Source: Longimicrobium sp. (GTDB taxonomy: Bacteria; Gemmatimonadota; Gemmatimonadetes; Longimicrobiales; Longimicrobiaceae). From it: 40,581 bases of DNA. Of this stretch, positions 12,646 through 26,001 are shown piece after piece. The stretch spans positions 1-40,581 of the forward strand of contig DASVWD010000071.1 in assembly GCA_036389795.1 (NCBI GenBank). The letters are read 5' to 3'. Under the pieces are notes generated by a model. It was not told where the DNA came from. It searched no databases and saw only the letters and a program-made list of their open reading frames with translations. Within the stretch, counting starts at the first letter, position 1; each line of letters starts with the position of its first letter. The position numbers and the translations under genes are program-made.

Positions 12646-15195
12646 ATGAGCGGCCTGGAACGACTGCTGATCGGGCGCACCCTGGACGGCCGGTACGCCA
12701 TCGAGGAGCTGATCGGGCAGGGCAGGGGCGGGTCCGTGTACCGGGCGCGCCACACCCGCCTGGGGTCCCTGCTGGCGGTGAAGGTGCTGGCCTCGCCGCG
12801 CAACCCCGAGGCGCGCGAGCGCTTCCGCCGGCTCTTCCGCCACGAGGCGGCGCTGGCCGCGGGGGTGCGGCACCCGGGCCTTCCCCTGGTGATCGGCTCG
12901 GGCACCGACGCCGAGCTGGACGTGGACTTCTTCGTCACCGAGCTGCTGGAGGGCGAGAAGCTCTCGTGCGTGCTGGCGCAGCGGGGGAAGCCGCCCGCGG
13001 CGCTGGCGCTCAGGCTGCTGAGCGAGGCCGCGGCGGGGGCGGGGGCCGCGCACGGGGCGGGGCTGGTGCACCGCGACCTGCGGCCGGCCAACCTGTACCT
13101 GGTGCGCTCCCCGGCGGAGCGGCACGTGCGGGCGCGGGTGGTGGGCTTCGGCGTGCCGCAGCTGGCCTCGCGCGCCACGCTCGCGTCGGCGGACGCGGCG
13201 CTGGTGGGGTACGCGCCGCCGGAGCTGTTCGCGGGCGGGCGCCTGACGCCGGCCGGCGACGTGTTCAGCCTGGGGGCCATCGGCTACGAGCTGCTCGCGG
13301 GCCGGGTGCCCTTCGACGAGGCGGGGCGCCGCGCGCTGGCGGAGGGCCGGCCGGTGCCGCTGGCTCCCCCGGCGGAGCCGGGCGCCGCCGTCCCCGCGCA
13401 CGTGATCGAGGCGATCCTGTGCGCGCTCCGCCCCAACCCCGACGAGCGCTTCGCGGACGCGGCGGCGTTCCAGATCGCGCTCGACACGGTCCCCGCCGCA
13501 TCGTCCCTCCCCGTTCCGGCGATCGGGGTCCCGGGCGGCGCGGCCGACGCGGAGCCGGCGGCGCCGGACTCCGGGGAGAAGCGGGAGGAAGCCGCGCCCG
13601 CCGAGGTCAAGGAGCTGCTCGCCAGGATCGACTCGGAGGTGGTGGCGGCGGAGGCGGACGGGGCCCTGGAGCCGCCGGTCGCCGAGATCCCGCCCCCGTC
13701 GGCAGCCGAGGTGGGGGCAGCGCTCGCGGAGTTCGATGCCGAGGTGGAGACGGCGCCCGTCACCGCGGCCGAGCCCGTCACCGAGGCGGAGCCGGCCGGC
13801 GCCGCAGCCGGGCCCGCTCTTGCCGCCGAGGCGGATTCGGCGGGCGTCGAGGCGGAGTCCCCCACCGTCGCCGAAGCCGAACCGGCCGACATCACCGTGA
13901 CCGTCACCGTCACGGAGGCCGAGCCGGCGGTCGCCGGGGTGGAGTCCATCGTCTCCGAGGCCGGGACGGGCATCATCGAGGCGGAGTCCACCGTCGTGGA
14001 GCCCGCGCCGAAGCCGTTCACCCCGCCGCCGCCGCCCGCCGACCTGCTCCGCGCCGCCTCCCTGGCACCACCGCGGCGAGGCGGCCAGCGCGACGGTGCC
14101 CCGTCCCATCCGCCGACGGCGAAGCCGAAGCCCGGGGGCGGCCGGGCCGGGAAGGCCGCGGCGGCCCCGGTCGAGCCGGTCGGCGCGTTCGCCACGGAGC
14201 GGGAGATCGCTCCGCCCGACGCGCTCGTTCCGCAGCCGCCGATCGAGGTCCTCGCCGCGCAGGTCACGTCGGGCGCGCCGAGGGATGTGCGTCCGGAGCC
14301 GGCCTCGCCCGCGCCCGCCGCGCCGGTGGCGGCCCTGCCGTCCCCCGCTCGCCGGCGGCGGGTGCTCGTGGCGCCGTCCGAGCGTTCGGCGAAGCGCCCG
14401 CCGGTGCTGGTCGGCCTCGTGGTCGCTGTCCTGCTGGTCGGCGCGGCCGGCGGGCTCGCGATGTTCCGCAGGGGAGCCAGCGATGCCAGGGCCGCATCAC
14501 CCGAGGCCGTGAACCAGCTCGCCGCCGGGACCGCGGCCGCGCCCGTCGCCGGCCAGCCGGCGGACGCCCGGGTCCAGGCCTCAATCCAGGCCATCGCCGA
14601 GCAGCCGGAAGAGCCCCAGGAGGAAGCGGCGAAGCAGAAGACGCCGGAGGAGCTCGCCGCCGAGGCCCGCCGGGCGCAGCAGGAGGCCGCGCTCCAGCAG
14701 CAGGCGCAGCAGGCCGCCGCGACGGCGCAGGCGACGCCCGCGCAGCAGCCGCCGGCCCCGCAGCCCGCGCCGGCGGCGCCCGCGCCGGTGCAGCCCCAGC
14801 CCCAGCTCGCCGCCGCGCCGCCTCCGCCGGCGCCCGAGCCGACCATCGCGCCCGCCGAGTCGCGGCGCGCGGCGCCGGCCATCTACGACGCCGACGCGGT
14901 GGAGCAGCAGCCGGCGCTGGTCAACGGCCCCGAGGTGGGGCGCCTGCTGCGGGAGCGCTACCCGATGCAGATGCTGCGCAACCGCATCGAGGGGCGCGTG
15001 ACGGCCACCTTCGTGGTGCGCGAGGACGGCAGCGTCGACCCCTCCAGCGTGCGCGTGGTGAGCTCGGCGAACGCGGCGTTCAACAACGCCACCGCCGGCG
15101 TGCTGCGCCGCGCCCGCTTCAGTCCCGCGCGCGTCAACGGCCAGCCGGTGAAGTCGCAGGTCACCATGCCCGTCGTCTGGGCCATCGACAGGTGA
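12646..15195 (+). CDS. Degenerate Ser/Thr kinase fused to a TonB C-terminal domain
   Basis: An 849-residue, two-part membrane protein. The N-terminal Hanks-type kinase fold (about 15-285) keeps the Gly-rich loop (GQGRGGSV), Lys46 in LLAVKVL and the catalytic loop HRDLRPAN (Asp144, Asn149), with a YAPPELF APE motif. The metal-binding DFG is GFG (Gly167), so catalysis is doubtful. A long Ala/Pro/Glu-rich linker (about 290-580) precedes a transmembrane helix (586-607) and a Gln/Ala/Pro-rich periplasmic spacer. A TonB/energy-transducer C-terminal domain (about 770-849) follows, with RIEGRVTATFVVREDGSVD and ARFSPARVNGQPV. The domain order puts the kinase in the cytoplasm and TonB in the periplasm. 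It may link signalling to outer-membrane transport. A terminator follows directly. Confidence 0.9.
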   Translation: MSGLERLLIGRTLDGRYAIEELIGQGRGGSVYRARHTRLGSLLAVKVLASPRNPEARERFRRLFRHEAALAAGVRHPGLPLVIGSGTDAELDVDFFVTELLEGEKLSCVLAQRGKPPAALALRLLSEAAAGAGAAHGAGLVHRDLRPANLYLVRSPAERHVRARVVGFGVPQLASRATLASADAALVGYAPPELFAGGRLTPAGDVFSLGAIGYELLAGRVPFDEAGRRALAEGRPVPLAPPAEPGAAVPAHVIEAILCALRPNPDERFADAAAFQIALDTVPAASSLPVPAIGVPGGAADAEPAAPDSGEKREEAAPAEVKELLARIDSEVVAAEADGALEPPVAEIPPPSAAEVGAALAEFDAEVETAPVTAAEPVTEAEPAGAAAGPALAAEADSAGVEAESPTVAEAEPADITVTVTVTEAEPAVAGVESIVSEAGTGIIEAESTVVEPAPKPFTPPPPPADLLRAASLAPPRRGGQRDGAPSHPPTAKPKPGGGRAGKAAAAPVEPVGAFATEREIAPPDALVPQPPIEVLAAQVTSGAPRDVRPEPASPAPAAPVAALPSPARRRRVLVAPSERSAKRPPVLVGLVVAVLLVGAAGGLAMFRRGASDARAASPEAVNQLAAGTAAAPVAGQPADARVQASIQAIAEQPEEPQEEAAKQKTPEELAAEARRAQQEAALQQQAQQAAATAQATPAQQPPAPQPAPAAPAPVQPQPQLAAAPPPPAPEPTIAPAESRRAAPAIYDADAVEQQPALVNGPEVGRLLRERYPMQMLRNRIEGRVTATFVVREDGSVDPSSVRVVSSANAAFNNATAGVLRRARFSPARVNGQPVKSQVTMPVVWAIDR

Positions 15196-15343: not shown

Positions 15344-15592
15344 ATGCCCAGGTCCGCCCTGCGCGGTAACGTCCCGCGAGATGCCGCTGAAAAGCCTGCG
15401 ATTCGCCGGAAGAACTTGAATATCGACCAGAACAAGCTGGACCGCGCGGTCAAGATTCTCGGTGCCCACTCCGAGACGGAGGCCGTAGACCGTGCGCTGG
15501 ACCTTCTGGTGTTCCGGGAGGATCTCCTAGAGGGAATTCGTCGAATCGGAGGCACGGGCGGCGTCGAGAACTTCTTCGACGAGCACCTCTGA
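15344..15592 (+). CDS. Putative antitoxin of a VapBC-like pair
   Basis: An 82-residue basic protein with a short helical region (LNIDQNKLDRAVKILG...SETEAVDRALDLLVF) matching the VapB-type ribbon-helix-helix antitoxins: a beta strand with basic flanks, then two helices. The acidic, aromatic C-terminus (GGVENFFDEHL) is the part that usually wraps the toxin. GAGGG lies six to eight bases before the ATG. One base separates its stop from the GTG of the PIN-domain gene, the normal antitoxin-first layout. The longer than usual N-terminus (about 25 residues before the strand) might start instead at a later codon, but no better start is visible. Confidence 0.8.
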   Translation: MPRSALRGNVPRDAAEKPAIRRKNLNIDQNKLDRAVKILGAHSETEAVDRALDLLVFREDLLEGIRRIGGTGGVENFFDEHL

Positions 15593-15593
15593 C

Positions 15594-16052
15594 GTGCGAA
15601 AGTTCGCGCTCGACACGAACCTCTACGTCCGGAGCATCCGAAATCCTGCCGATGCCGGGGACCTGGGGCGCTTCTACTCCGCCTTCGCCCCCTCCCTCTA
15701 TCTCAGTTCCATCGTCCTCCACGAACTCCTCATCGGCGCAGATGGGGAGTTGAAGGTCAAGCAGATCCACAGGGACATTGCGGGTCCGTTCGACCGCACC
15801 GGGCGGATCTTCGCCCCTTCTCATCGGTCATGGGTCGCGGCAGGGGAAGCGCTCGCGAAGCTGGCCTCCACGGGTGATCTGGACCGCCGGGCGCTTCCCC
15901 GTTCCTTCATCAACGACGTGCTGCTTGCTGCTTCGTGTAGAGAAGCGGGAATCACGCTGGTCACCGACAACGGTCGCGATTTTATGCGGATCGCGCGCGT
16001 GCTTCCATGCGAGTTCGTCGAGCCTTGGCCACGAAGTCTTTCCCAAGATTAA
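15594..16052 (+). CDS. PIN-domain ribonuclease toxin, VapC-like
   Basis: A 152-residue PIN-domain protein. The acidic metal-binding residues are in place: Asp7 in FALDTNLYVRS, Glu44 in SSIVLHELLIGA, Asp108 in RSFINDVLLAASCRE and Asp125 in LVTDNGRDF. VapC toxins cut tRNA or rRNA in a Mg2+/Mn2+-dependent way and are held inactive by the cotranslated antitoxin. The GTG start immediately follows the antitoxin stop, which supports both the start and the coupling. The full domain is present, with no truncation. Codon use is somewhat less GC-rich than in surrounding genes, consistent with a mobile toxin-antitoxin cassette. The RNA target is unknown. Confidence 0.9.
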   Translation: MRKFALDTNLYVRSIRNPADAGDLGRFYSAFAPSLYLSSIVLHELLIGADGELKVKQIHRDIAGPFDRTGRIFAPSHRSWVAAGEALAKLASTGDLDRRALPRSFINDVLLAASCREAGITLVTDNGRDFMRIARVLPCEFVEPWPRSLSQD

Positions 16053-16237
16053 TCCCGTTCGCGTGCAATTGATGGTAGCTCACACTGAACTCGTACACGA
16101 GTCAGTCGGGGCCACTTCCATTTCGGACAGTACCGCGCTGTGACCCGCGCAAGCCGTTGCTCGTCATGGGCCTACACGTGACACATCGCTTGGGAGAACG
16201 GCCTGTGAAAGCGGGCCGTACAGCGCGGGAGGGGAGC

Positions 16238-16612
16238 GTGCGAGTGATGCTCGTGGAGGACGATCCCGACCACCGGACCATCTACCGGACCATGCTGCAG
16301 GCGTCCGGCTACGAGGTGGTGGAGGCGCTGGAAGGCGGCGAGGCGGTGCGCATGGCCACCGACCATCCCCCGGACCTGATCCTGATGGACCTGGGCGTTC
16401 CCGGGATCGACGGGCTGGAAGCCACGCGGCGGCTCAAGCGCGAGCCGCGCACCTCGAAGGTCCCGGTGGTGGCGCTGACCGCGCTGGTGCTCCCCCAGAC
16501 CCGCGACGAGGCGCGCGCCGCCGGGTGCGCCGCCTACCTGGCCAAGCCGGTGGAGCCGCGGGTGGTGGTGGAGGTGGTGCGGCGGCTGGCGGGTCCCGCC
16601 GACGCGGCGTAG
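16238..16612 (+). CDS. Single-domain response regulator (CheY-like receiver)
   Basis: A 124-residue receiver domain with no output domain. It shows the acidic pair in VMLVEDDPDHR, the phosphoacceptor Asp in LILMDLGVPGIDG, the switch Thr in VALTALVLP and the conserved Lys in AYLAKPVEP. I choose the GTG at 16238, which follows GGGAGG by five bases and gives the normal start MRVMLVEDD; longer in-frame starts to 16157 would add an unstructured extension. Such regulators act through protein contacts, for example as phosphorelay intermediates. The closest histidine kinase in the window is at 8939-10627; pairing is not shown. A terminator follows. Confidence 0.9.
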   Translation: MRVMLVEDDPDHRTIYRTMLQASGYEVVEALEGGEAVRMATDHPPDLILMDLGVPGIDGLEATRRLKREPRTSKVPVVALTALVLPQTRDEARAAGCAAYLAKPVEPRVVVEVVRRLAGPADAA

Positions 16613-16647
16613 CCCGGCGATCCGTCGTCCTGTCGTCCAGTGAGCGA

Positions 16648-16680
16648 AGCCCCGGCCGGAGCCCTCCGGCCGGGGCTTCT
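16648..16680 (+). terminator. Intrinsic terminator after the response regulator
   Basis: AAGCCCCGGCCGGAG pairs with CTCCGGCCGGGGCTT with a short loop, followed by CTTCG. This isolates the response regulator from the lasso cluster downstream and belongs to the shared GAAGCCCCGGC stem family. Confidence 0.8.
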
Positions 16681-16974
16681 TCGTGCCTGCTGATCCACCC
16701 TCCGGTAGCAGGCGTTCCCGGCCGTGGCGCCCGATCCCGGGGTGTGGCGCGGGTGCGACACCGCGCGCCGGCCGCTCCGTGGCGCGCTCCCCTCACGAGG
16801 GAGCGTGCCCGCGGCCAACGCGCAGCTACGAGCGGCCATTCCAGGTCTCCGGGGCCGCCGCGGGGGAATGCTCCGCACGTGGCACGGCTCGTGTTCAGAG
16901 GCCGAGTCCCGGGCGGCGCCTCACCCCCCACCGGCCCGCGTCCATTCCTCTCCATCCAGCCCCGCAGATCCGGC
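16681..16974. other. Leader region of the lasso cluster
   Basis: About 290 very GC-rich bases separate the terminator from the first lasso gene. Two small hairpins are visible (CCTGCT/AGCAGG near 16686-16712 and GCTCCC/GGGAGC near 16786-16805). I could not find a convincing promoter, although one must lie here if the cluster is transcribed as a unit. No gene is supported. Confidence 0.5.
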
Positions 16975-17289
16975 ATGCTCCCGAGTGCGAGTCCCCCCGT
17001 GCTGTTCCAGCGGCTTCCCGACGGTGCGGTGCTGTTCGACGCCGCCAGCGAAGTCTACTTCGGCCTCGACCCCGTGGGCGCCCGGGTGTGGGAGCTCCTC
17101 ACCGGAGAGGCCGGCGGATCGCTGGAGGAGCTGTGCGCGGCGCTCGCGCGCGAGTACCCCGACGCCGACCCCGCCGCAGTGCGGGCCGACGTCGAGGAGC
17201 TGCTCGGCGAGCTGGCCCGCCACGGGCTGGTGATCCCTTCCCCCGCCGGAGCCGAAGATGCGGCGGAGCTCGCAGGGGCGCGCCCGTAA
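16975..17289 (+). CDS. Lasso peptide B1: PqqD-family RiPP recognition element
   Basis: A 104-residue PqqD-fold protein. The pattern VLFQRLPDGAVLFDAASEVYFGLDPVGARVWELL (here read as overlapping motifs), then EELCAALAREYP and the C-terminal helix VEELLGELARHGLV, is that of the winged-helix RiPP recognition element. In lasso clusters split into B1 and B2, this protein binds the precursor leader and delivers it to the B2 protease and the C cyclase. The ATG at 16975 gives the usual family start. Its end overlaps the B2 gene by 32 bases. A PQQ role is excluded because no pqqA/C/E genes are nearby and all neighbours are lasso genes. Confidence 0.92.
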   Translation: MLPSASPPVLFQRLPDGAVLFDAASEVYFGLDPVGARVWELLTGEAGGSLEELCAALAREYPDADPAAVRADVEELLGELARHGLVIPSPAGAEDAAELAGARP

Positions 17290-17725
17290 GCCGGCGGCGC
17301 GGCGCGCGGCCGCGGCGTTCGACGTGGCGTGGGCCTGGTGGGCGCTCGCGCTCGCCCGGCTGCAGGTGTGGCTGCGCCCCACCGGGCGGCTGCTGGGCTC
17401 CGACGAGCCTCCCGCCGCGCCCGCCGCCGCGCCGCTGGCCCGCGAGCGCGCCGTCCGCCTGGCGCGCGCGGTGGACCGCGCCGCCCGCGGGCCGCTGCGG
17501 GCCACCTGCCTGGTGCGCGCGGTGGCGCTGCACCGCCTGCTGCAGGCGTCGGGCGTCGACGGCAGCCTGGTGCGGATCGGCGTGCGGGCCGAGGGCGGGC
17601 GCTTCGCGGCGCACGCGTGGGTGGAGTACCACGGCGCCGCGCTGGGGACCGACGGGGCGCGGGCGCGCTCCTTCCTCCCCCTGGCGCCCGAGGCCCTGGG
17701 GCCCGGCGCGGAGTTCGGCCGGTGA
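17258..17725 (+). CDS. Lasso peptide B2: transglutaminase-like leader peptidase
   Basis: A 155-residue protein of the Transglut_core3 (McjB C-terminal) type that removes the leader in lasso peptide maturation. The catalytic Cys84 lies in LRATCLVRAVALHRLL, His119 in AAHAWVEYHG, and Asp132 (GTDGARAR) sits 13 residues after the His, close to the McjB spacing. The N-terminus is Arg/Ala-rich with a Trp-rich helix (VAWAWWALALARLQVWL), as in other B2 proteins. It starts inside the B1 gene (32-base overlap) and its TGA overlaps the GTG of the cyclase gene, so B1, B2 and C are coupled. Confidence 0.92.
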   Translation: MRRSSQGRARKPAARRAAAAFDVAWAWWALALARLQVWLRPTGRLLGSDEPPAAPAAAPLARERAVRLARAVDRAARGPLRATCLVRAVALHRLLQASGVDGSLVRIGVRAEGGRFAAHAWVEYHGAALGTDGARARSFLPLAPEALGPGAEFGR

Positions 17726-19776
17726 GTGCCCTGGTCGCGGTCTTCGGGGCGCCGGACGCGCTGCCGGACGACGCCGGGGTGCGGCGGATGCTGGCCGCCG
17801 CGCGCCGGGGCGACGGCCCCGCGGCGCTCCACCGCCAGCCTGGGTGCGTGCTGGCCGTCCGCCGCCACGCCTGGGAGACGGCCGACGGCTTCGGCGGGCC
17901 GGCCGCGGTGGTGACGGAGGACGGCCTGACCGTGGTCACCGACGCCACCCTCTACCACCGGGACGACCTGCGGCGGGACCTGCGCGCGCGGGGAGTGGCG
18001 CCCTCCGGCGACACCCCGGGGCACCTGGTGCTGGCGGCGTACCGCGCCTGGGGTGAGCGCTGCCCCGAGCACCTGGAGGGCGATTTCGCCTTCGTGCTCT
18101 GGGACGCCCGCGCCCGCCGCGCGGTGTGCGCCCGCGACTTCGCGGGGAAGCGCCCGCTCCTGTACGCCGAGGTCCCCGGGGCCCTGGTGGTGGCCTCCGC
18201 CGCCGGCGCCGTGCTGGCGCACCCGGCCGTCTCCGCGGAGCTCAACCCCGCGTCGCTGGCCGAGGCCGCGGCGGGGATGTGGGCGGGGAGTGACGAGACC
18301 GCCTTCCGCGCCGTGCGGCGGCTGCACCCTGCCCACACGCTCCGCTGGGAGGGGGGCGCCCCGGCCCGGACCGCGCCCCACTGGTCGCCCCCGGCGATGG
18401 GCTCCGCGCGTGGGCCCGCCTTCGACGAGGCCGCGGAGGAGCTGCGGGAGCTGCTCGTCCGCGCGGCCGCGGAGCGCCTCCCCGCCCCGGGGCCGGCGGC
18501 GGTGTGGATGAGCGGGGGGTGGGACTCGACCGCCGTCTTCGCGGCCGGTCAGGACGCGCTCCGCTGCGAAGGCAGGGGCGGCGGCGCCCTGGAGGTCGTC
18601 TCGGTCAGCTACCCGCAGGGCGACCCGGGGCGTGAGGACGAGCTGATCCAGGCCGTCGCCGGGCACTGGGGGCGGCCGGTCCACTGGCTCCGGATCGGCG
18701 AGATCCCGATGCTCGGGCGCGCGGAGGAGCGGGTGGCGGCGCGCGACGAGCCCCTGGCGCACGTCTTCGAGACGTGGAACCGCGCGCTGATCGGGCGGAC
18801 CCGCGAGCTGGGGGCGCGGGTGGCGCTCGACGGCAACGGGGGCGACCAGCTCTTCTTCACCAGCAACGTGTTCTTCGCGGACCTGCTGGTGCGCGGGCGC
18901 TGGCGCGAGCTGCGGCGCGAGTGGCGGGTGAAGGGGGGGACGCGCCCGCGCGACTTCTACGACAACGCCGTCCGGCCGCTCCTCTCCCCGGGCCTGGCGC
19001 GGCTGGTGGCGGCGCTCGGGGGCCCGCGTCCTGACCCCGTCTTCGAGCGCCCGGTGCCGGGGTGGATCCCGCCCGCCTTCGCGCGGCGGCACGGCCTGGC
19101 GGCGCGCGAGCGGGCGCACAGCCCGCGGCCGCCCTGGCGCGGCCTGGCCGAGCGCGAGGCGTACTGGTACCTGACCTGTCCGCACTTCGCCCGGGCCTAC
19201 GGGCTCCTCTCGGGCTTCGCGCTGGAGGCGGGGGTGGAGCTGCGCTCGCCGCTTCTGGACCGGCGGGTGGTGGAGCTCGCGGCGGCGCGCCCGCGCCCCG
19301 AGCGCAACGCCGGGCGCGAGGTCAAGCGCCTGCTGCGCCGCTCCATGCGCGGCCTCCTCCCCGACGGGGTCCTCGCTCCGCGCGACGCCAAGACGGGGAC
19401 GCTGGACGGCTACTTCGCCCGCTCGATGCAGGGGGGCTTCCCCGCGCTCGCCGAGGCCGCGCTCTCCGGCTCGCCGCGGCTGGCCGAGCTGGGGATCGTG
19501 GAGCCCGGGGCCTTCCGCGCCGGACTCGAGGAGTACGCCCGCACGGGCGACGGCTGGCTGGGCTACGCGCTGCACCAGACGGTGCAGGTGGAGCTCTGGC
19601 TCCGCGCCCGCGAGGGCGGCACACATCGTTTCGCGCCGGCCGGGGCGCCGGAAGCCTCGCTTCCGCGCACCCGCGCGCCGGCACTCACAGCCGCGGCCAC
19701 TCCGGGCCGCGCACCGGGCGCAAGCCCGGTCCACCCGCGACCAGGAGGTGTCGCGTGTACACCAAACCCACGCTGA
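17722..19776 (+). CDS. Lasso peptide C: asparagine synthetase-like macrolactam synthetase
   Basis: A 684-residue AsnB homologue. The N-terminal class II amidotransferase-like domain (about 1-215, with LEGDFAFVLWDARARRAVCARD) lacks the nucleophilic Cys: the residue after the initiator is Ser. This is expected for lasso cyclases, which use the leader-freed amine instead of ammonia. The synthetase domain has the ATP pyrophosphatase loop MSGGWDST (Ser264-Ser269) and the later ALDGNGGDQLFF motif. The enzyme adenylates the core Asp/Glu side chain and closes the macrolactam. The GTG start overlaps the B2 stop (GTGA). The last 50 residues are Pro/Ala-rich and unlike the family; the reading frame runs 22 bases into the precursor gene. 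Confidence 0.93.
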   Translation: MSALVAVFGAPDALPDDAGVRRMLAAARRGDGPAALHRQPGCVLAVRRHAWETADGFGGPAAVVTEDGLTVVTDATLYHRDDLRRDLRARGVAPSGDTPGHLVLAAYRAWGERCPEHLEGDFAFVLWDARARRAVCARDFAGKRPLLYAEVPGALVVASAAGAVLAHPAVSAELNPASLAEAAAGMWAGSDETAFRAVRRLHPAHTLRWEGGAPARTAPHWSPPAMGSARGPAFDEAAEELRELLVRAAAERLPAPGPAAVWMSGGWDSTAVFAAGQDALRCEGRGGGALEVVSVSYPQGDPGREDELIQAVAGHWGRPVHWLRIGEIPMLGRAEERVAARDEPLAHVFETWNRALIGRTRELGARVALDGNGGDQLFFTSNVFFADLLVRGRWRELRREWRVKGGTRPRDFYDNAVRPLLSPGLARLVAALGGPRPDPVFERPVPGWIPPAFARRHGLAARERAHSPRPPWRGLAEREAYWYLTCPHFARAYGLLSGFALEAGVELRSPLLDRRVVELAAARPRPERNAGREVKRLLRRSMRGLLPDGVLAPRDAKTGTLDGYFARSMQGGFPALAEAALSGSPRLAELGIVEPGAFRAGLEEYARTGDGWLGYALHQTVQVELWLRAREGGTHRFAPAGAPEASLPRTRAPALTAAATPGRAPGASPVHPRPGGVACTPNPR
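19742..19749 (+). promoter_or_regulatory. Very strong ribosome-binding site of the lasso precursor
   Basis: AGGAGGTG lies five bases before the GTG at 19755, inside the end of the cyclase gene. It is the best ribosome-binding site in the cluster, fixes the precursor start, and would favour high precursor synthesis relative to the enzymes. Confidence 0.8.
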
Positions 19777-19907
19777 CCCGTTTCGGGACGCTCCGCGAGC
19801 TCACGCTCTGCGGCGCGAGCGCGCCGCTCGACGGCGGGCCCTCGAACGGGAACGGCTCCACCAACTTCAACTGCGGCACCAGTGGTGGAGGGGGGAGTCA
19901 CTCGTAG
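19755..19907 (+). CDS. Lasso peptide precursor (A)
   Basis: A 50-residue peptide between the cyclase and kinase genes. The leader MYTKPTLTRFGTLRELTL (1-18) has the conserved Tyr2, Pro5, Leu7 and Gly11 of the RRE-binding motif, and Thr17 at position -2 of the predicted cleavage. The core is then 19-50: CGASAPLDGG, followed by PSNGNGSTNFNCG and a Gly/Ser tail ending in His-Ser. Core Cys1 and Asp8 would close an eight-residue macrolactam ring. Cys22 is the only other Cys, so one disulfide is possible. The terminal Ser fits the cluster's HPr-kinase-like enzyme, which in paeninodin-type clusters phosphorylates the C-terminal Ser. The GTG start is fixed by the AGGAGGTG site. Cleavage and modifications are inference. 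Confidence 0.88.
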   Translation: MYTKPTLTRFGTLRELTLCGASAPLDGGPSNGNGSTNFNCGTSGGGGSHS

Positions 19908-19922
19908 TCCGTGTGGCTCCCC

Positions 19923-19948
19923 GTGGAGGGCCCCTCGGGGCCCTCCAC
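19923..19948 (+). other. Stem-loop directly after the precursor gene
   Basis: A perfect 11-bp GC stem (GTGGAGGGCCC/GGGCCCTCCAC) with a CTCG tetraloop begins 16 bases past the precursor stop and ends 26 bases before the kinase gene. There is no U-tract, so it more likely protects or processes the precursor mRNA, or causes partial termination, than ends transcription. Confidence 0.65.
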
Positions 19949-19973
19949 CCGTCCTCACCCTCGCAAGATCGAC

Positions 19974-20930
19974 ATGCCGGACTACGCTGTCTTCGGCGGC
20001 CTCCTCCGCTCCGAGCTGGAGCTCATGGGCGTTCCCCCCGCGGGCGAGGGGAGGGACGCGGACTGGCGCCTGCGCGTCGTCCGCCGTCCTCCGCCGCCCA
20101 CCGCCCACGCCCCCGAGGCCGAGGTGGGCGAGGACGGCTACGCGGTGCGGCTCTACCGGCTGACGGACGGCTGGCGGCTGGCGTACGCCGACACCGGCAC
20201 CTACGACGTCTCGGCCGGCGGCGCCCGCATCGCCTGGCACCCCGTCCCCGGCGCCCTCCCCGAGCTGGTGCAGGCCGACGTGCTGGGGCGGGTGCTGGCG
20301 CTGGCGCTGGGCGCGGCGGGGGCGCTCCCGCTGCACGGCAGCGCCGTGGCCCTGGACGGGGAGAGCATCGTTCTCCTCGGCGAGAAGCACCACGGGAAGT
20401 CCACCCTGGCCGCCGCGCTCACCGCGGCCGGCGCCCGGCTGGTCTCCGACGACATGGCGGCCGTGGAGCCCGGCCCCCCCGCGCTCCTGCGCCCCGGCGT
20501 GGCCCAGCTGCGCCTGTGGGCCGACAGCGCACAGAGCGCGCTGGGCGACACCCCCGCCACCCGCTCGGGGGGGATCAAGGACACCCTCTCGGGGCTCCCC
20601 GCCGAGCGGGTGGAGACGGCGTCCACGCGGCTCGGGGCGATCTACGTCCTGGCCCCCGAGGCCGCGGATGGCGAGGGCGAGCCCGTGGCCCGCGTCCCGC
20701 TCGCCCCCACCGAGGCCGCGCTGGCGCTCCTGGTGCACGCCAAGCTGGGCGCCCTCCTTCGCGGCCCGCTCGCCGCCGAGCACCTGCGCCGCGCGGCGCA
20801 GGTCGTCCGCCAGGTGCCCGTCTACAGCCTGCGCGTGGTGCGCGGCCTGGAGCGCCTCCCCCGGGTGGCCGCCCGCGTGCTGCAGTGGCACGGCGCGGCG
20901 GCGGCAGGGCGGCCGGAGGCGCTGCCGTGA
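19974..20930 (+). CDS. Lasso-cluster HPr-kinase-like protein (probable precursor Ser kinase)
   Basis: A 318-residue protein related to the C-terminal domain of HPr kinase/phosphorylase. The P-loop is GEKHHGKS (136-143, Lys142), preceded by the strand pair LPLHGSAVALDGESIVLLG, and followed by LVSDDMAAVEPG with the acidic pair typical of this family. The N-terminal 110 residues are a variable domain. In paeninodin-type lasso clusters the equivalent kinase phosphorylates the C-terminal Ser of the precursor, and here the precursor ends in Ser. I use the ATG at 19974 because the upstream in-frame GTG lies within the hairpin leader. Its TGA overlaps the GTG of the ABC ATPase. A carbon-catabolite role is unlikely because there is no HPr gene nearby. 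Confidence 0.88.
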   Translation: MPDYAVFGGLLRSELELMGVPPAGEGRDADWRLRVVRRPPPPTAHAPEAEVGEDGYAVRLYRLTDGWRLAYADTGTYDVSAGGARIAWHPVPGALPELVQADVLGRVLALALGAAGALPLHGSAVALDGESIVLLGEKHHGKSTLAAALTAAGARLVSDDMAAVEPGPPALLRPGVAQLRLWADSAQSALGDTPATRSGGIKDTLSGLPAERVETASTRLGAIYVLAPEAADGEGEPVARVPLAPTEAALALLVHAKLGALLRGPLAAEHLRRAAQVVRQVPVYSLRVVRGLERLPRVAARVLQWHGAAAAGRPEALP

Positions 20931-21991
20931 TCGCCGCCGCGCCCCGCGCCTCCGCCCGGGTGGAGGGCGCGCCGCCGCCCCCGCGCGAGGCGGTGGTGCG
21001 GCTGGAGGGGCTCGCCAAGAGCTTCCCCGTGCGCCGCGGCTGGCGCGAGACGCTCCTGCACCCGCGCTCCGGGCGCCTCGCCCCCGCGCTGCAGGGCGTC
21101 ACCTGCGACGTGGCCGCCGGCGAGCTGTTCGGGCTCCTGGGCCCCAACGGCGCGGGGAAGACCACGCTCTTCCGCATCCTCTCCACGCTGGTGCTCCCCG
21201 ACGCCGGCACCGCCCGGGTGGGCGGCGCCGACGTGGCGCGCGAGCCCGCGCGGGTGCGCCGCCTGCTGGCGCCGGTGCTCACCGACGAGCGCAGCCTGAA
21301 CTGGCGCCTCTCGGCCCGCGAGAACCTGCGCCTCTTCGCCGCGCTCTACGGCCTGTCGGGCGCCGCAGCCCGCGCCCGGGTGGACGAAGTGCTGCAGGTG
21401 GTGGAGCTGGGCGACGCCTCGGAGCGGCCCGTGGGCGGCTTCTCGTCGGGGATGAAGCAGCGCCTCCTGCTGGCGCGCGCGCTCCTGGCCCGCCCGCGGG
21501 TGCTGCTGCTGGACGAGCCCACCCGCAGCCTGGACCCGATCTCGGCCCGGCGCTTCCGCGCCTTCCTGCGCGACGAGGTGGTGGGGCGGCGGGGGTGCAC
21601 GGTGATCCTGGCCACCCACGCCGCCGACGAGGCGATGGAGCTGTGCGACCGGGTGGCGGTGCTGGACCGCGGGCGCCTGCTGGCGGTGGGCCCGGCCGAG
21701 GAGCTCTCCCGCCGCGCGGGGCGCGAGCGCTACCGCGTGTGGACGCGCGCCCCGGAGCACCCCGCCTTCGCCGTGCTGGCGCGGCGCGGGCTCCTCCGGT
21801 CGCCCCGCGCGGGCGAGGCGGGCGAGGAGGGGTGGGCAAGCGTGGACGCCGAGGTCCCCGGCGGCGAGGAGGGGGCGGCCGCCGTGCTGGCGGCGCTCGC
21901 GGCCGAGCGGGTGCCGGTCTCCCGCTTCGAGCGGGTGCGGCCCACCCTGGCCGAGCTGATCGAGCGCATCGTGGAGGAGGCCGCCCCGTGA
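20927..21991 (+). CDS. ABC exporter ATPase of the lasso cluster
   Basis: A 354-residue ABC ATPase of the NatA/drug-exporter type. It has Walker A GPNGAGKTT (from Gly72), a Q-loop region VLTDERSLNW, the signature FSSGMKQR (from Phe172), Walker B VLLLDEPTRSLDP (Asp196, Glu197) and a switch His in ATHAADEAM. About 35 extra N-terminal residues precede the domain, and a C-terminal region of about 100 residues ends in the exporter-like FERVRPTLAELIERIVEE. It is coupled to the kinase upstream and the permease downstream by GTGA overlaps. With the permease it should form the D transporter that exports the finished lasso peptide and gives self-immunity. Confidence 0.93.
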   Translation: MIAAAPRASARVEGAPPPPREAVVRLEGLAKSFPVRRGWRETLLHPRSGRLAPALQGVTCDVAAGELFGLLGPNGAGKTTLFRILSTLVLPDAGTARVGGADVAREPARVRRLLAPVLTDERSLNWRLSARENLRLFAALYGLSGAAARARVDEVLQVVELGDASERPVGGFSSGMKQRLLLARALLARPRVLLLDEPTRSLDPISARRFRAFLRDEVVGRRGCTVILATHAADEAMELCDRVAVLDRGRLLAVGPAEELSRRAGRERYRVWTRAPEHPAFAVLARRGLLRSPRAGEAGEEGWASVDAEVPGGEEGAAAVLAALAAERVPVSRFERVRPTLAELIERIVEEAAP

Positions 21992-22791
21992 GCCGACCCG
22001 TGGGCGCGCTGGTGCGCGCGGCGTTCCTGACCGACGCCAGCTATCGGGTGGCGATGCTCACCTCGCTGGCCGGCCTGATCGCGACGACGATTCCCGTCTA
22101 CTTCATCTCCGGGGCGATCCAGCCCGTGGTGGCCGAGTCGATCGCCACGCAGGGGGGGCAGTACTTCGCCTTCGTGCTGGTGGGGATGATGGCGGTGAAC
22201 TTCGTGCACTCGGCGTGCAGCGCGCTCCCGGGCGCCGTCTCGTCCGGGATCCGCAGCGGCACCCTGGAGGTGATGCTCGCCACCCCCACCCCGGTGCCCA
22301 CCCTGCTGGCGGGGATGGTGGGGTACCCGCTGATCTGGACACTGCTGCGCGCCGCCGTCCTCCTGCTGACCGGCGCGGTGCTGGGCGCGCGCTTCGCGCC
22401 GGGGGGCGCGCTCCCGGCCGCGGCGGTGCTCGCGCTGATCGTGCTGGCGTACCTCCCCTTCGGGCTGCTGGGGGCGGCGCTCCTGCTGGTGTTCCGCACC
22501 ACCGGCCCGGTGCTGCAGGGGGTGGTGGTGCTCTCGCTCCTGCTGGGCGGCGTCTACTATCCCACCGAGGTGATCCCGGCGCCGCTGCGCGTGTTCTCGA
22601 GCGTCCTTCCCCTCACCTACGGCCTCAGGGCGCTGCGGCGCACGCTGCTGGACGGCGCGCCCCCCGCCGCGGTGGCGGGCGACGTGGCCGCGCTGCTGGG
22701 CTTCACGGCGGTGCTCCTGGCCGCGGGCTCGCTGGCGCTGGCGGCGGCGCTGCGCCACGCGCGGCGCCAGGGCACCCTGGCGCAGTACTGA
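21988..22791 (+). CDS. ABC-2 type permease of the lasso cluster
   Basis: A 267-residue membrane protein with six hydrophobic segments typical of the ABC-2 permease family (NatB/DrrB-like), including the amphipathic-loop pattern GIRSGTLEVMLATPTPVPTLL and the late motif GGVYYPTEVIPAPLRVFSSVLPLTY, quoted here as separate conserved blocks. It starts at a GTG overlapping the ATPase stop (GTGA). Two copies probably pair with two ATPases to export the mature peptide. The presence of a NatAB-like pair rather than a single fused McjD-type exporter is notable but known from other non-proteobacterial lasso clusters. Export of another cluster product cannot be excluded. Confidence 0.92.
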   Translation: MSRPVGALVRAAFLTDASYRVAMLTSLAGLIATTIPVYFISGAIQPVVAESIATQGGQYFAFVLVGMMAVNFVHSACSALPGAVSSGIRSGTLEVMLATPTPVPTLLAGMVGYPLIWTLLRAAVLLLTGAVLGARFAPGGALPAAAVLALIVLAYLPFGLLGAALLLVFRTTGPVLQGVVVLSLLLGGVYYPTEVIPAPLRVFSSVLPLTYGLRALRRTLLDGAPPAAVAGDVAALLGFTAVLLAAGSLALAAALRHARRQGTLAQY

Positions 22792-22794
22792 GCC

Positions 22795-24003
22795 GTGCCG
22801 CGCCATCCGCCCCTCCTCCCCGAAGCGGAGCTGCTGCTGCTGGCCGCGCGCGGCCCCGAGGGCGACGAGCGCTTCCGCGCGCTGCTGGACACGGGGCTCG
22901 ACTGGGACCGGGTGGCGGCGCGGGTGGAGCGCGACCGGGCGCACGCCGCGTTCTGGCGGCGGGCGGCGGCCGCCGGGCTGGAGCGGATCCCCCCCGAACC
23001 CCGCGAGCGGCTGCGCCGGCTGGGCCAGGTGGCAGCCTTCCGGCAGGCGCGCCTGGAGGAGCGGCTGGGCCAGGCGCTCGGCGTGCTGGAGGGCGCCGGC
23101 GTCGAGGTGCTCCTGCTCAAGGGCGCGGCGCTGGCGGTCTCGGTGTACGGCTCGTTCGCCGAGCGGCCGATGGCCGACCTGGACCTGCTGGTCCCCGCCG
23201 ACCAGGCGGAAGAGGCGCAGCGCCTGCTGCTGGAGGCCGGCTGGGTGCGCGCGGCGCCGGTGCCGGCCGAGCGCCTGGACGCGCTCTACGCAGGGCACCA
23301 CCACCTGGCGCCGCTGGCCGACGCGGGCGGCACGGGGGTGGTCCTGGAGCTGCACACCGCCCCGCTCCCCCCCGGCCATCCGTTCCGCCTGGACGCCGCC
23401 GACCTCTGGCGCGAGTCGCTCCCCGTGCGAGTGGGCGCCCGCGCCGCGCGCGTGCCCGACCTGCACCACCAGGTGCTGCACCTCTGCCTGCACTTCGCCT
23501 GGGCGCACGCCATGGAGTCGGGCGCCTGGCGCACGCTGCGCGACCTGCGCGCGCTCTCCGCCCGGGAGGGGCTCGACTGGGGGCGCGTGGCAGCCCTGGC
23601 GCGAGATGCGCGGGGGGCGAGCTGCGCCTACTGGGCGCTCCGGCTGGCGCGGGGGCTGGTGGGCGCGCGGGTGCCGGACGGGGTGCTGGAGGCGCTGGCC
23701 CCGCGCGGCTCGCGGTGGAGGCTGGACCTGCTGGAGCGGCACTTCGTGGCGACGCTCTTCGGCGGGGCGCGCTGCCCCTCGCCGCGGGTCACGCGCGCGC
23801 TCTGGGAGGCGGCGGTCGCGCCGGGGCGGAGCGGGCACGGCGCGGCGCGGCCGTGGCTGCGGCAGGAGGCGTTCGCGGAAGCCGGGATCGCCGCGGTGGA
23901 CGCCGGGGCGCGCGCCTCGGCGTGGGGGGACTTCGCCGGGTGGCGGCGCTACCTGGGGACGCTCCTCTTCGCCGCGCAGGGCGGGGTCGGCGTCCTGTTC
24001 TGA
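22795..24003 (+). CDS. NTP_transf_5-type nucleotidyltransferase of the lasso cluster
   Basis: A 402-residue protein of the uncharacterised nucleotidyltransferase family PF14907. The core LLLKGAALAVSVYGSFAERP leads to MADLDLLVP with Asp128 and Asp130, the metal-binding pair of the polymerase-beta-like fold; later blocks VVLELHTAPL, HHQVLHLCLHF and TLRDLRALS match the family. It is the last gene, with GTG three bases after the permease stop, so it belongs to the operon. Relatives occur in many lasso and other RiPP clusters, sometimes beside HPr-kinase-like genes, but their exact chemistry is not settled. It might transfer a nucleotide or further phosphate onto the peptide; that is speculation. 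No terminator is obvious after it. Confidence 0.88.
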   Translation: MPRHPPLLPEAELLLLAARGPEGDERFRALLDTGLDWDRVAARVERDRAHAAFWRRAAAAGLERIPPEPRERLRRLGQVAAFRQARLEERLGQALGVLEGAGVEVLLLKGAALAVSVYGSFAERPMADLDLLVPADQAEEAQRLLLEAGWVRAAPVPAERLDALYAGHHHLAPLADAGGTGVVLELHTAPLPPGHPFRLDAADLWRESLPVRVGARAARVPDLHHQVLHLCLHFAWAHAMESGAWRTLRDLRALSAREGLDWGRVAALARDARGASCAYWALRLARGLVGARVPDGVLEALAPRGSRWRLDLLERHFVATLFGGARCPSPRVTRALWEAAVAPGRSGHGAARPWLRQEAFAEAGIAAVDAGARASAWGDFAGWRRYLGTLLFAAQGGVGVLF

Positions 24004-24104
24004 GCCGGGGCCGAGTCGTTCGCGGCTGCACGAGGGATGCGCGCCCCGGAGGGTCGGAACGGCGGTGCGGGAGCCAGCCGATTCCGTCGTATCCCGGCCG
24101 ATCC

Positions 24105-24974
24105 TCAGCCGGCGAAGCCCTCCAGGATTTCGAGCATGTCCGCCAGGTGTCCGCGGATGTCGGCCAGCGCCGCCCCGTCGGTGAACCCCGGCTCCCTCTC
24201 CTTCAGGGCCCGAGCCACCTCTGGCAGCAGGGGTTGGAAGGCTCCGCCCAGTGCCAGACCCAGGGTGTTGCTCGCGTGGCGGATCCTGTCTCTCGCGAGC
24301 TTCCGCGTTTCCCTCGCCTGCACCATCTCCGCCAGATCGGATTCGATGCGGCCCACCACCTCGGCCCCGGCCGCCATCAGGTCGCGCAAGTACAACAGGT
24401 CCTTGGCTCGTTTGGGATTCGCGCCTCCCTGACGGGCTTGCCGGCGTGCGAACGTCGACGACTTGTTGACGACGTAGGCTCCGAGAGTGGGAACCCAGAT
24501 CTCCAGAGACACGCCTCCCGCGGGCGTGGCGGCCGGGATCGCCAGCCGTCGCCGGAAGCGGCGCATGAAGTCCAGGCCGCCGAGAGGTATGGCGCCCATC
24601 CCGTTCTGGGCGGTCACGGGGACGACGGCCCCTTCCTGCCGGCTGGCCCCCTGATGCGGAACCAGGAACTCTATCTTCTCTCCACTCCGAACATCGCGCT
24701 CCCACACGGCGAGACCGCCCTCTTCCACGGCAGGACGGAACCCCGCCTTGCGCAGGATCTCGGGGATCGAGGGGCGGCCCGCGGGGAGAAGCGGGCGATC
24801 CACCAGGACATCCACCTCCGCGGTGAGGGACGTGCTCGTCATCCACGAGGCGAATCCCCCGTACCGTTTGTAGAGATACGGCACCCAGCCGCCGACGATC
24901 ACGAGCTCGTTGAGGTACGGCCGCAACTCCCACACGATCCGTCGCAAGGCGGCCTCGTAGGGCGAGAAGTCCAT
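24105..24974 (-). CDS. AbiEii-like nucleotidyltransferase (type IV toxin-like)
   Basis: A 289-residue protein with a minimal nucleotidyltransferase motif: the strand-turn VIVGGWVPYLY (Gly28-Gly29) and the acidic strand TAEVDVLVD (Glu53, Asp55). The rest is mostly helical, as in AbiEii/MenT-type proteins, with NPKRAKDLLYLRDLM as the usual helix near the C-terminal half. Such enzymes add nucleotides to tRNA or other targets and are neutralised by an AbiEi antitoxin. The antitoxin gene ends one base before this ATG (TGAAATGG), so they are cotranslated. Composition is less GC-rich than the surroundings, in line with horizontal gain. Toxicity is inferred from the pair, not from a strong motif match. 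Confidence 0.78.
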   Translation of the reverse strand: MDFSPYEAALRRIVWELRPYLNELVIVGGWVPYLYKRYGGFASWMTSTSLTAEVDVLVDRPLLPAGRPSIPEILRKAGFRPAVEEGGLAVWERDVRSGEKIEFLVPHQGASRQEGAVVPVTAQNGMGAIPLGGLDFMRRFRRRLAIPAATPAGGVSLEIWVPTLGAYVVNKSSTFARRQARQGGANPKRAKDLLYLRDLMAAGAEVVGRIESDLAEMVQARETRKLARDRIRHASNTLGLALGGAFQPLLPEVARALKEREPGFTDGAALADIRGHLADMLEILEGFAG

Positions 24975-24975
24975 T

Positions 24976-26001
24976 TCACGCGAAGAGGTGCTGAGCGTCG
25001 ATGATGTGCTCGGCCTGCTCACGGCCTCTGAGCGGATAGTGCCAGAGGTCGAGGGCGAGCTGCAGGTCGCTCACCACCGGCAGACCGCCGATCTCCCGCA
25101 TGCCGTGCCAGACGGAGTCCCGGTAATACGGCTTCATCAGAACGAGCCGACCCTCCTCCGCGACCGGCCATCCCTGGTTTTCCGCCAGATCCAGCAAATC
25201 GCCCGTTTTTTCGACGTCCACGTAGGCGTGTACGCGTTCCCAGCTCGCGTGAGGCGCGACGAGAGACGCTCCGGCATGCATCGTCAGCGCCCACCTGTAC
25301 GCTGCGAAGACGCTCCGCGAGCGTCGCAGGAAGCGCATCGGGTCTCCGAGTGGGGCGTTGAGGGCGATGCTCTGGTTCTTCACCCAGTCGTACGCGCCCG
25401 TCCAGAGCGTGAACAGACCGCGCGGCTCCGTCAGCCGGATATGGGAGCCACGTCCGATCCGCCTGAGGGTGACGATCCTGTGCCGCAGCAGCTCGCGAAC
25501 AATCCTCGTGACGGTCGCGGGTCCGACGCCGGCCGCACCAGCGAGCTCGCGCACCCCCCAGGACCGGTCTCCGGTCGTAAGCAGCGTTCGTACGACCAGG
25601 GAGCTCCGGTCGGCAAAAGGATCGAACGACGGGTACGCCGATTTCCTCCGCGGCGGGGGTGGAATCCCGCTCCGGTCGACCAGCAGGTTCGGGAAAGTCA
25701 GGTGCACCGTTCCCCGCAGGTCGACGAAGTTCTTCCGCTGGTTCCGGAGGCGGTCGTGAAGTCCCTTTGTTGCGCCCGTTAGAATCCAGACCCTGGCCGG
25801 ATCGTCGCTCAGGTCTGGCTCCGCATGGGTCCAGAGTACGAATTCGAGGGGGATCGCCTCTCCCCCCTGGAACTCGATCACCGCGTCGTGTCCAGGCTCG
25901 TTGCTCGCGGCCCGGACGGACGCGCTCGGACTCAGAGCCTCTTTGACGAGCAGAAAGGCATCCCGCTCGGGACGATGGGAGCTTCCATTGTGTTGTTTCA
26001 T
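24976..26001 (-). CDS. AbiEi-like winged-helix antitoxin/regulator
   Basis: A 341-residue protein with a winged helix-turn-helix in the middle (about 136-200, VRELAGAAGVGPATVTRIVREL with the wing RRIGRGSHIRL, read as two blocks). It is followed by an AbiEi-like C-terminal domain (TMHAGASLVAPHASWERVHAYVD). The N-terminal 100 residues resemble a restriction-endonuclease-like or effector domain without catalytic residues I can name. In type IV systems AbiEi both counters the nucleotidyltransferase and represses its own promoter by binding inverted repeats; a perfect 18-bp palindrome lies 12 bases upstream of this gene. The ATG follows AAAGGA by six bases. The whole operon looks like an insertion beside the lasso cluster. 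Confidence 0.8.
   Translation of the reverse strand: MKQHNGSSHRPERDAFLLVKEALSPSASVRAASNEPGHDAVIEFQGGEAIPLEFVLWTHAEPDLSDDPARVWILTGATKGLHDRLRNQRKNFVDLRGTVHLTFPNLLVDRSGIPPPPRRKSAYPSFDPFADRSSLVVRTLLTTGDRSWGVRELAGAAGVGPATVTRIVRELLRHRIVTLRRIGRGSHIRLTEPRGLFTLWTGAYDWVKNQSIALNAPLGDPMRFLRRSRSVFAAYRWALTMHAGASLVAPHASWERVHAYVDVEKTGDLLDLAENQGWPVAEEGRLVLMKPYYRDSVWHGMREIGGLPVVSDLQLALDLWHYPLRGREQAEHIIDAQHLFA

Follow-up and report, generated by a model that had tools for sequence, protein, structure and literature searches.

The eight-gene operon and its surroundings

The window (the whole stretch of DNA analysed here, 40,581 nucleotides from Longimicrobium sp.) derives from contig C71 of a 7.5 Mb assembly that is 98% complete. 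It carries a plus-strand operon at positions 16975-24003 with the genes B1, B2, C, A, K, D1, D2 and N (Table 1). All eight reading frames are open, and each gene gave a family match, in agreement with the initial annotation, which had placed the genes at the same positions and in one direction. The description of most genes as joined by GTGA or longer overlaps holds for B1/B2 (32-bp overlap), for C/A (22-bp overlap) and for B2/C, K/D1 and D1/D2 (GTGA each), but not for D2/N, which the ORF coordinates separate by a 3-bp gap, nor for A/K, the only junction that is set apart (66-bp gap, on the assumption that ATG 19974 is the start codon of K). The reading frame of K extends upstream to a GTG at 19911; the ATG is probably the true start, because the region of homology in relatives begins just after it. 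Consensus promoters and U-tract terminators were not found in 16600-24400, a null result that is uninformative at this G+C content.

Upstream of the operon lie a plus-strand gene that joins a Ser/Thr protein kinase domain to a C-terminal domain of TonB type, which is an odd combination (12646-15195), a plus-strand VapBC pair of a VapB-like antitoxin and a PIN-domain gene (15344-16052) and, after this pair, a lone response regulator (16157-16612). Just downstream, on the opposite strand, an NTP_transf_8 gene adjoins an AbiEi-like gene (24105-26001); the two are a probable AbiE/MenAT-like toxin-antitoxin pair by their sequence.

Table 1. Features of the operon, with positions in the window and profile or structure matches.
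Feature	Position	Strand	Description	Matches
B1	16975..17289	+	discrete PqqD-like RiPP recognition element (RRE), 104 aa	PF05402 2.3e-18; TbiB1 structure 5v1u 1.3e-7
B2	17258..17725	+	leader peptidase, transglutaminase-like, 155 aa	lasso_biosyn_B2 2.2e-17 (above cut-off); PF13471 2.1e-17; NF033537 above cut-off
C	17722..19776	+	lasso macrolactam synthetase, asparagine-synthetase-like, 684 aa	Asn_synthase PF00733 2.7e-32; lasso cyclase model NF033535 1.3e-57 (under the cut-off of this narrow model)
A	19755..19907	+	precursor, 50 aa, GTG start	NF033521 lasso leader, 23.1 bits (cut-off 19)
hairpin	19923..19948	+	perfect 11-bp stem, GTGGAGGGCCC-CTCG-GGGCCCTCCAC, just 3' of A	
K	19974..20930	+	HprK-like kinase	HprK_rel_A TIGR04352 1.3e-9; Hpr_kinase_C PF07475 6.4e-5 (both below cut-off)
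D1	20927..21991	+	ABC transporter ATPase, DrrA-like	ABC_tran PF00005 2.7e-30; TIGR01188 drrA 1e-72 (below cut-off)
D2	21988..22791	+	ABC-2 type permease, DrrB-like	ABC2_membrane PF01061 3.5e-13; TIGR00025 5.1e-13 (below cut-off)
N	22795..24003	+	nucleotidyltransferase-fold protein, 402 aa	NTP_transf_5 PF14907 3e-45

Conservation of the operon in Gemmatimonadota

A kinase-alignment search of 394 genomes of the class returned matches in 104. We also scanned named records with a 7-row kinase alignment and then read the neighbourhoods of the close matches; the matching records were Gemmatimonadota MAGs, save for two records with more distant kinases, one from Rhodothermus and one delta-proteobacterial. 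The order B1 B2 C A K D1 D2 N is identical in 14 clusters including that of the window, and A comes first in six others. The gene set is thus not due to chance, given that the same eight-gene order recurs in 13 other Gemmatimonadota clusters. A plasmid collection yielded no relative of K and only one weak relative of N. Literature naming both lasso peptides and Gemmatimonadetes or Gemmatimonadota amounted, in the papers searched, to passing mentions; the clusters would extend phospho-lasso biosynthesis to a little-studied phylum for which no description was found in that literature.

The precursor and its terminal serine

Precursor A reads MYTKPTLTRFGTLRELT-L / CGASAPLDGGPSNGNGSTNFNCGTSGGGGSHS (leader / core). 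The leader is of the lasso type (YTKPTLTRFGTLRELT), with a YxxP motif and Thr at position -2, and the 32-residue core begins with Cys1, has Asp at position 8 and ends in SHS, that is, with a terminal Ser. From the precursor sequence a Cys1-Asp8 ring is predicted, and a Cys1-Cys22 disulfide could form in the same core.

Its neighbour K holds the His-Lys-Asp-Asp set (LHGSAV, HGKST, SDD), and H126, K147, D164 and D165 are invariant in a 17-row alignment. This motif is essential in lasso kinases, as established by mutation (PMC9266682), and PadeK, ThcoK and SyanK each phosphorylate a C-terminal Ser (PMC9266682, PMC8498205). The four retained catalytic residues and the conserved linkage in relatives uphold the earlier proposal of a tailoring kinase, and A ends in Ser, the terminal residue required by a kinase of the paeninodin type. 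We curated by hand 51 precursors that lie beside members of the window's kinase clade in Gemmatimonadota (the window's A and 50 relatives) and, as a control, 22 precursors of lasso clusters in the same class in which this kinase is absent. A terminal Ser was present in 41 of the 51 kinase-clade precursors vs. none of the 22 controls (Fisher test, 2.5e-11, an optimistic value since the clusters are partly close relatives); ten kinase-adjacent precursors are exceptions without it. Some 50 precursors have thereby put the rule 'kinase means terminal Ser' to the test, and it largely held. Two of the control clusters, both without K, come from the window's own genome (L054:353-1042 and L055:5139-7669); each has three candidate precursors, and these do not end in Ser.

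Separately, three lasso-like clusters from the window's own genus and family pair a more distant kinase with Thr-ended precursors (L061:8628-8735, QTKT; L066:8315-8419, SFSMT; L063:10326-10436, NLKT), which suggests a Thr acceptor in these clusters.

The nucleotidyltransferase and the exporter

The nucleotidyltransferase that had been noted beside the kinase is substantiated by its family profile, by residues invariant among its relatives (K109, R124 and the acidic set D128, D130 and E185) and by the fold of its model. This model (pLDDT 84) resembles MenT1 (Z 16) and ANT(2'')-Ia (Z 14) and, less closely, FKRP (Z 9.8), a ribitol-phosphate transferase; a PDB sequence search with N gave no match. 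Judged by the model, the N fold could move NMP or, as in FKRP, a phosphosugar. In the pseudomycoidin pathway, PsmN is required for the appearance of one or two hexoses on phospho-Ser (PMC9266682, PMC8498205). If N were FKRP-like, the product would be Ser-P-P-sugar, which would, speculatively, account for a polyphosphate-plus-hexose mass pattern. D1 and D2 match the profiles of an ATPase and a permease and keep their linkage in relatives, as expected of the two-gene exporter recognized before.

These enzymes might be unrelated to the peptide: the operon would then make a plain lasso peptide, with K and N acting elsewhere or inactive, e.g. as a linked signalling kinase and a toxin-like nucleotidyltransferase. 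The HprK profile match of K is indeed weak, and the N fold is common to MenT toxins and antibiotic-resistance adenylyltransferases. However, K resides in a conserved operon with B1, B2, A, D1, D2 and N across the class, its four kinase residues are invariant, and its presence tracks the terminal Ser of A; we consider a plain product very unlikely.

A hairpin between A and K

Perfect stems of at least 9 bp with a short loop, located within 75 bases after A, were found in 18 of 51 cases vs. 0.5% of random stretches from the same loci, so that such stems are ~70 times more common after A; their sequences differ between clusters. By fold energy alone, the hairpin is only 2.2 s.d. below shuffled sequences. 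The ~70-fold excess speaks against the hairpin being a chance product of G+C-rich DNA, and we regard it as a probable processing or attenuation element. It would probably serve to raise the A transcript over those of the downstream enzymes.

Lasso enzymes and the ring acceptor

The split B1/B2 pair and C had been taken to define lasso biosynthesis, and their profiles, motifs and conserved linkage in dozens of relatives bear this out. B1 contains an RRE of the PqqD type and is close to TbiB1 of a characterized lasso system. In C, the SGGWDS ATP site is intact, with S264, G265, G266, D268 and S269 invariant in the alignment. Residue 2 is Ser (Met-Ser start), and C therefore has no glutaminase Cys; lasso cyclases lack this residue of true asparagine synthetases. 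The retention of catalytic residues that had been expected of B2 and C is complete for the ATP site of C and for Cys84 and His119 of B2, but not for the triad Asp of B2, which is replaced by Thr.

An Asp or Glu at core positions 7-9 was present in 41 of 46 precursors from clusters with a C gene vs. none of five from clusters without it (p = 1e-4, again optimistic because of related clusters). Both Fisher values overstate independence, as many sampled clusters are related (e.g. L107, L108, L110 and L128); the direction of the terminal-Ser and ring-acceptor contrasts is clear despite this kinship. Five precursors in C-containing clusters lack the acidic residue. Three clusters with C (L137, L138 and L140, from G254, G345 and G193) have cores without Asp/Glu at 7-9 and share an IGDD motif at about positions 10-14.

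Could the product nevertheless be a linear phosphopeptide, with ring closure absent or not the point? Linear polyphosphorylated peptides (LPPs) were described in Bacillota in 2026, and their clusters likewise have a kinase, an RRE and an NTP transferase, without C or B2 (PMC13381572); moreover, some sister clusters of the window's operon lack C (see below). Against a linear product, the window's C is intact and keeps its ATP site, and A has Asp at core position 8, a pattern found only where C is present. We consider a linear product very unlikely too. An LPP cluster in the strict sense is ruled out for the operon by the presence of C and B2 and by the lack of a signal-peptidase-I-like protein in the operon.

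In B2, Thr occupies the position 12 residues after the active-site His (His+12), and an Asp follows at +13 in the alignment. Among 93 B2 proteins from the loci, 49 have D at His+12, 21 have E and 23 have some other residue (T in 2), and the non-acidic residues also occur in B2 members of intact clusters. Since 23 of the 93 proteins have no acidic residue there, the Thr is, on this comparison, an uncommon deviation and not necessarily a disqualifying one; with Thr for the usual Asp, cleavage might be weak or use Asp+13. A PDB sequence search with B2 gave no match, and a Foldseek search with its model no significant one. Decay of the cluster, with the triad Asp lost and no mature peptide made, is likewise very unlikely: the Thr is the point in its favour, but the non-acidic B2 proteins, the open frames, the tight operon overlaps and the other retained catalytic residues all speak against it.

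Ring-less relatives

The freshest point of the analysis lies outside the window. Five clusters have B1, K and N but no C: L053:5544-8904 and L156:3576-6765 consist of A, B1, B2, K and N; L154:2573-7725 and L155:8420-14281 retain D1 and D2 as well; and L157:1852-7928 has no recognizable B2. All five precursors end in Ser, and none has Asp/Glu at core positions 7-9 (cores e.g. MFADVYVNGRS and NGFQTSLSCYSCS). In whole-genome searches of G050 (the genome of L156), G054 and G276 a cyclase of the family type was not found, the best scores being 130-158 bits vs. 859-909 for true family members, those of G011. A lasso cyclase of another kind is present elsewhere in G110 (C26 cluster, L178). For the L157 precursor, cyclization in trans would in principle be possible, as G011 carries three family-type cyclases on other contigs.

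A kinase tree pairs L053 with L156, with support, inside a set of clusters that have C, and places the remaining three C-less clusters elsewhere; its deep branches lack resolution. Given these placements, the loss of C probably occurred at least twice. The products of the five clusters are likely to be linear phosphopeptides, to judge from their genes. A joint reading for Gemmatimonadota, which we offer tentatively and would rate at somewhat under even odds, is that the C-terminal Ser tag, for which K acts first and N second, is the conserved heart of these systems, rather than the lasso ring. Loss of the ring-forming genes on more than one occasion would have left linear phosphopeptides processed by B2, a parallel to the LPPs of Bacillota; the window's cluster would represent the ring-bearing form, and N would perhaps be FKRP-like, moving a phospho-sugar from a nucleotide-sugar to phospho-Ser. 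The C-less clusters amount to a natural experiment on which of the two, tag or knot, is responsible for the biological function, for paeninodin-like peptides as well as LPPs.

A more distant K/B1/B2/N set without C was seen in L191, L193, L194, L195, L197, L198 and L203. Several of these loci adjoin very short peptides with an [FY]xAPxL...L..[LI]TL motif (e.g. MRKTFTAPKLTEEATLTRLTLSGLVVSNTD) and perhaps represent another linear phosphopeptide family.

Proposed pathway

Profiles, motifs, conserved linkage and the co-occurrence of K with a terminal Ser speak for a modified lasso peptide whose chemistry goes beyond ring closure, as the initial annotation had suggested. We hold it very probable that the product of the operon is a lasso peptide with a tag at its C-terminus; by analogy, its last Ser probably receives a phosphate, followed by a nucleotide or sugar. 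The steps proposed here follow characterized relatives (PadeK, PsmK/PsmN). B1 would bind the YxxP leader of A and hand A to B2, which would cut after the Thr-Leu pair, the predicted cleavage site. Using ATP, C would link core Cys1, through its amino group, to the Asp8 side chain; the resulting 8-residue ring would be threaded by the long Gly/Ser/Asn-rich tail, possibly with the Cys1-Cys22 disulfide. K would phosphorylate the hydroxyl group of Ser32, the last residue, once or several times, probably at the precursor stage, ahead of folding, in the manner of PadeK, and N would add a nucleotide or sugar unit to the phosphate, as PsmN does. D1/D2 would export the product, and the hairpin behind A probably lifts A expression over that of the downstream enzymes.

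Comparison with known systems

By its gene set, its retained motifs, the terminal-Ser and ring-acceptor patterns and the 14 clusters of the same order, the operon is classed as a phospho-lasso cluster of the paeninodin/pseudomycoidin type. Bacillota already provide a lasso cluster that combines K and N, namely that of pseudomycoidin (PMC9266682, PMC8498205), which limits the novelty. What sets the operon apart from the known members of this type is its phylum, its split DrrAB-like exporter, the 32-residue core and the hairpin between A and K.

The paeninodin cluster of Paenibacillus dendritiformis (PadeK) shares with the window's operon lasso enzymes with discrete B1 and B2 proteins, a precursor with a terminal Ser and an HprK-like His-Lys-Asp-Asp kinase (PMC9266682). 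Compared with this Bacillota system, the operon adds N, the split DrrAB-like exporter and a longer Gly/Ser/Asn-rich core with the predicted Cys1 and D8 ring, and has A after C. Going by their descriptions, two further systems are similar: pseudomycoidin of Bacillus pseudomycoides, from a phylum other than the window's, in which lasso enzymes are joined by a kinase and a nucleotidyltransferase (PsmK and PsmN; PMC9266682, PMC8498205), and the SyanK-type cluster of Sphingobium yanoikuyae (Proteobacteria), whose HprK-like kinase polyphosphorylates a C-terminal Ser (PMC9266682).

The LPP clusters of Paenibacillus resemble the operon in having a discrete RRE, an HprK-like kinase, an NTP transferase and a peptide with a YxxP leader; they differ in their signal-peptidase-like LppS, in the phosphate on core Ser3 and in an MsbA-like exporter, whereas C, B2 and a terminal Ser are all present in the window's operon (PMC13381572). 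Gemmatimonadota are not mentioned in that paper (PMC13381572). In contrast to the LPP clusters, most of the C-less clusters of Gemmatimonadota retain B2, and a terminal Ser is present in each of the five. New relative to the known systems are thus, in the window, a branch at the level of the phylum that has a different exporter and, in the wider survey, the ring-less relatives.
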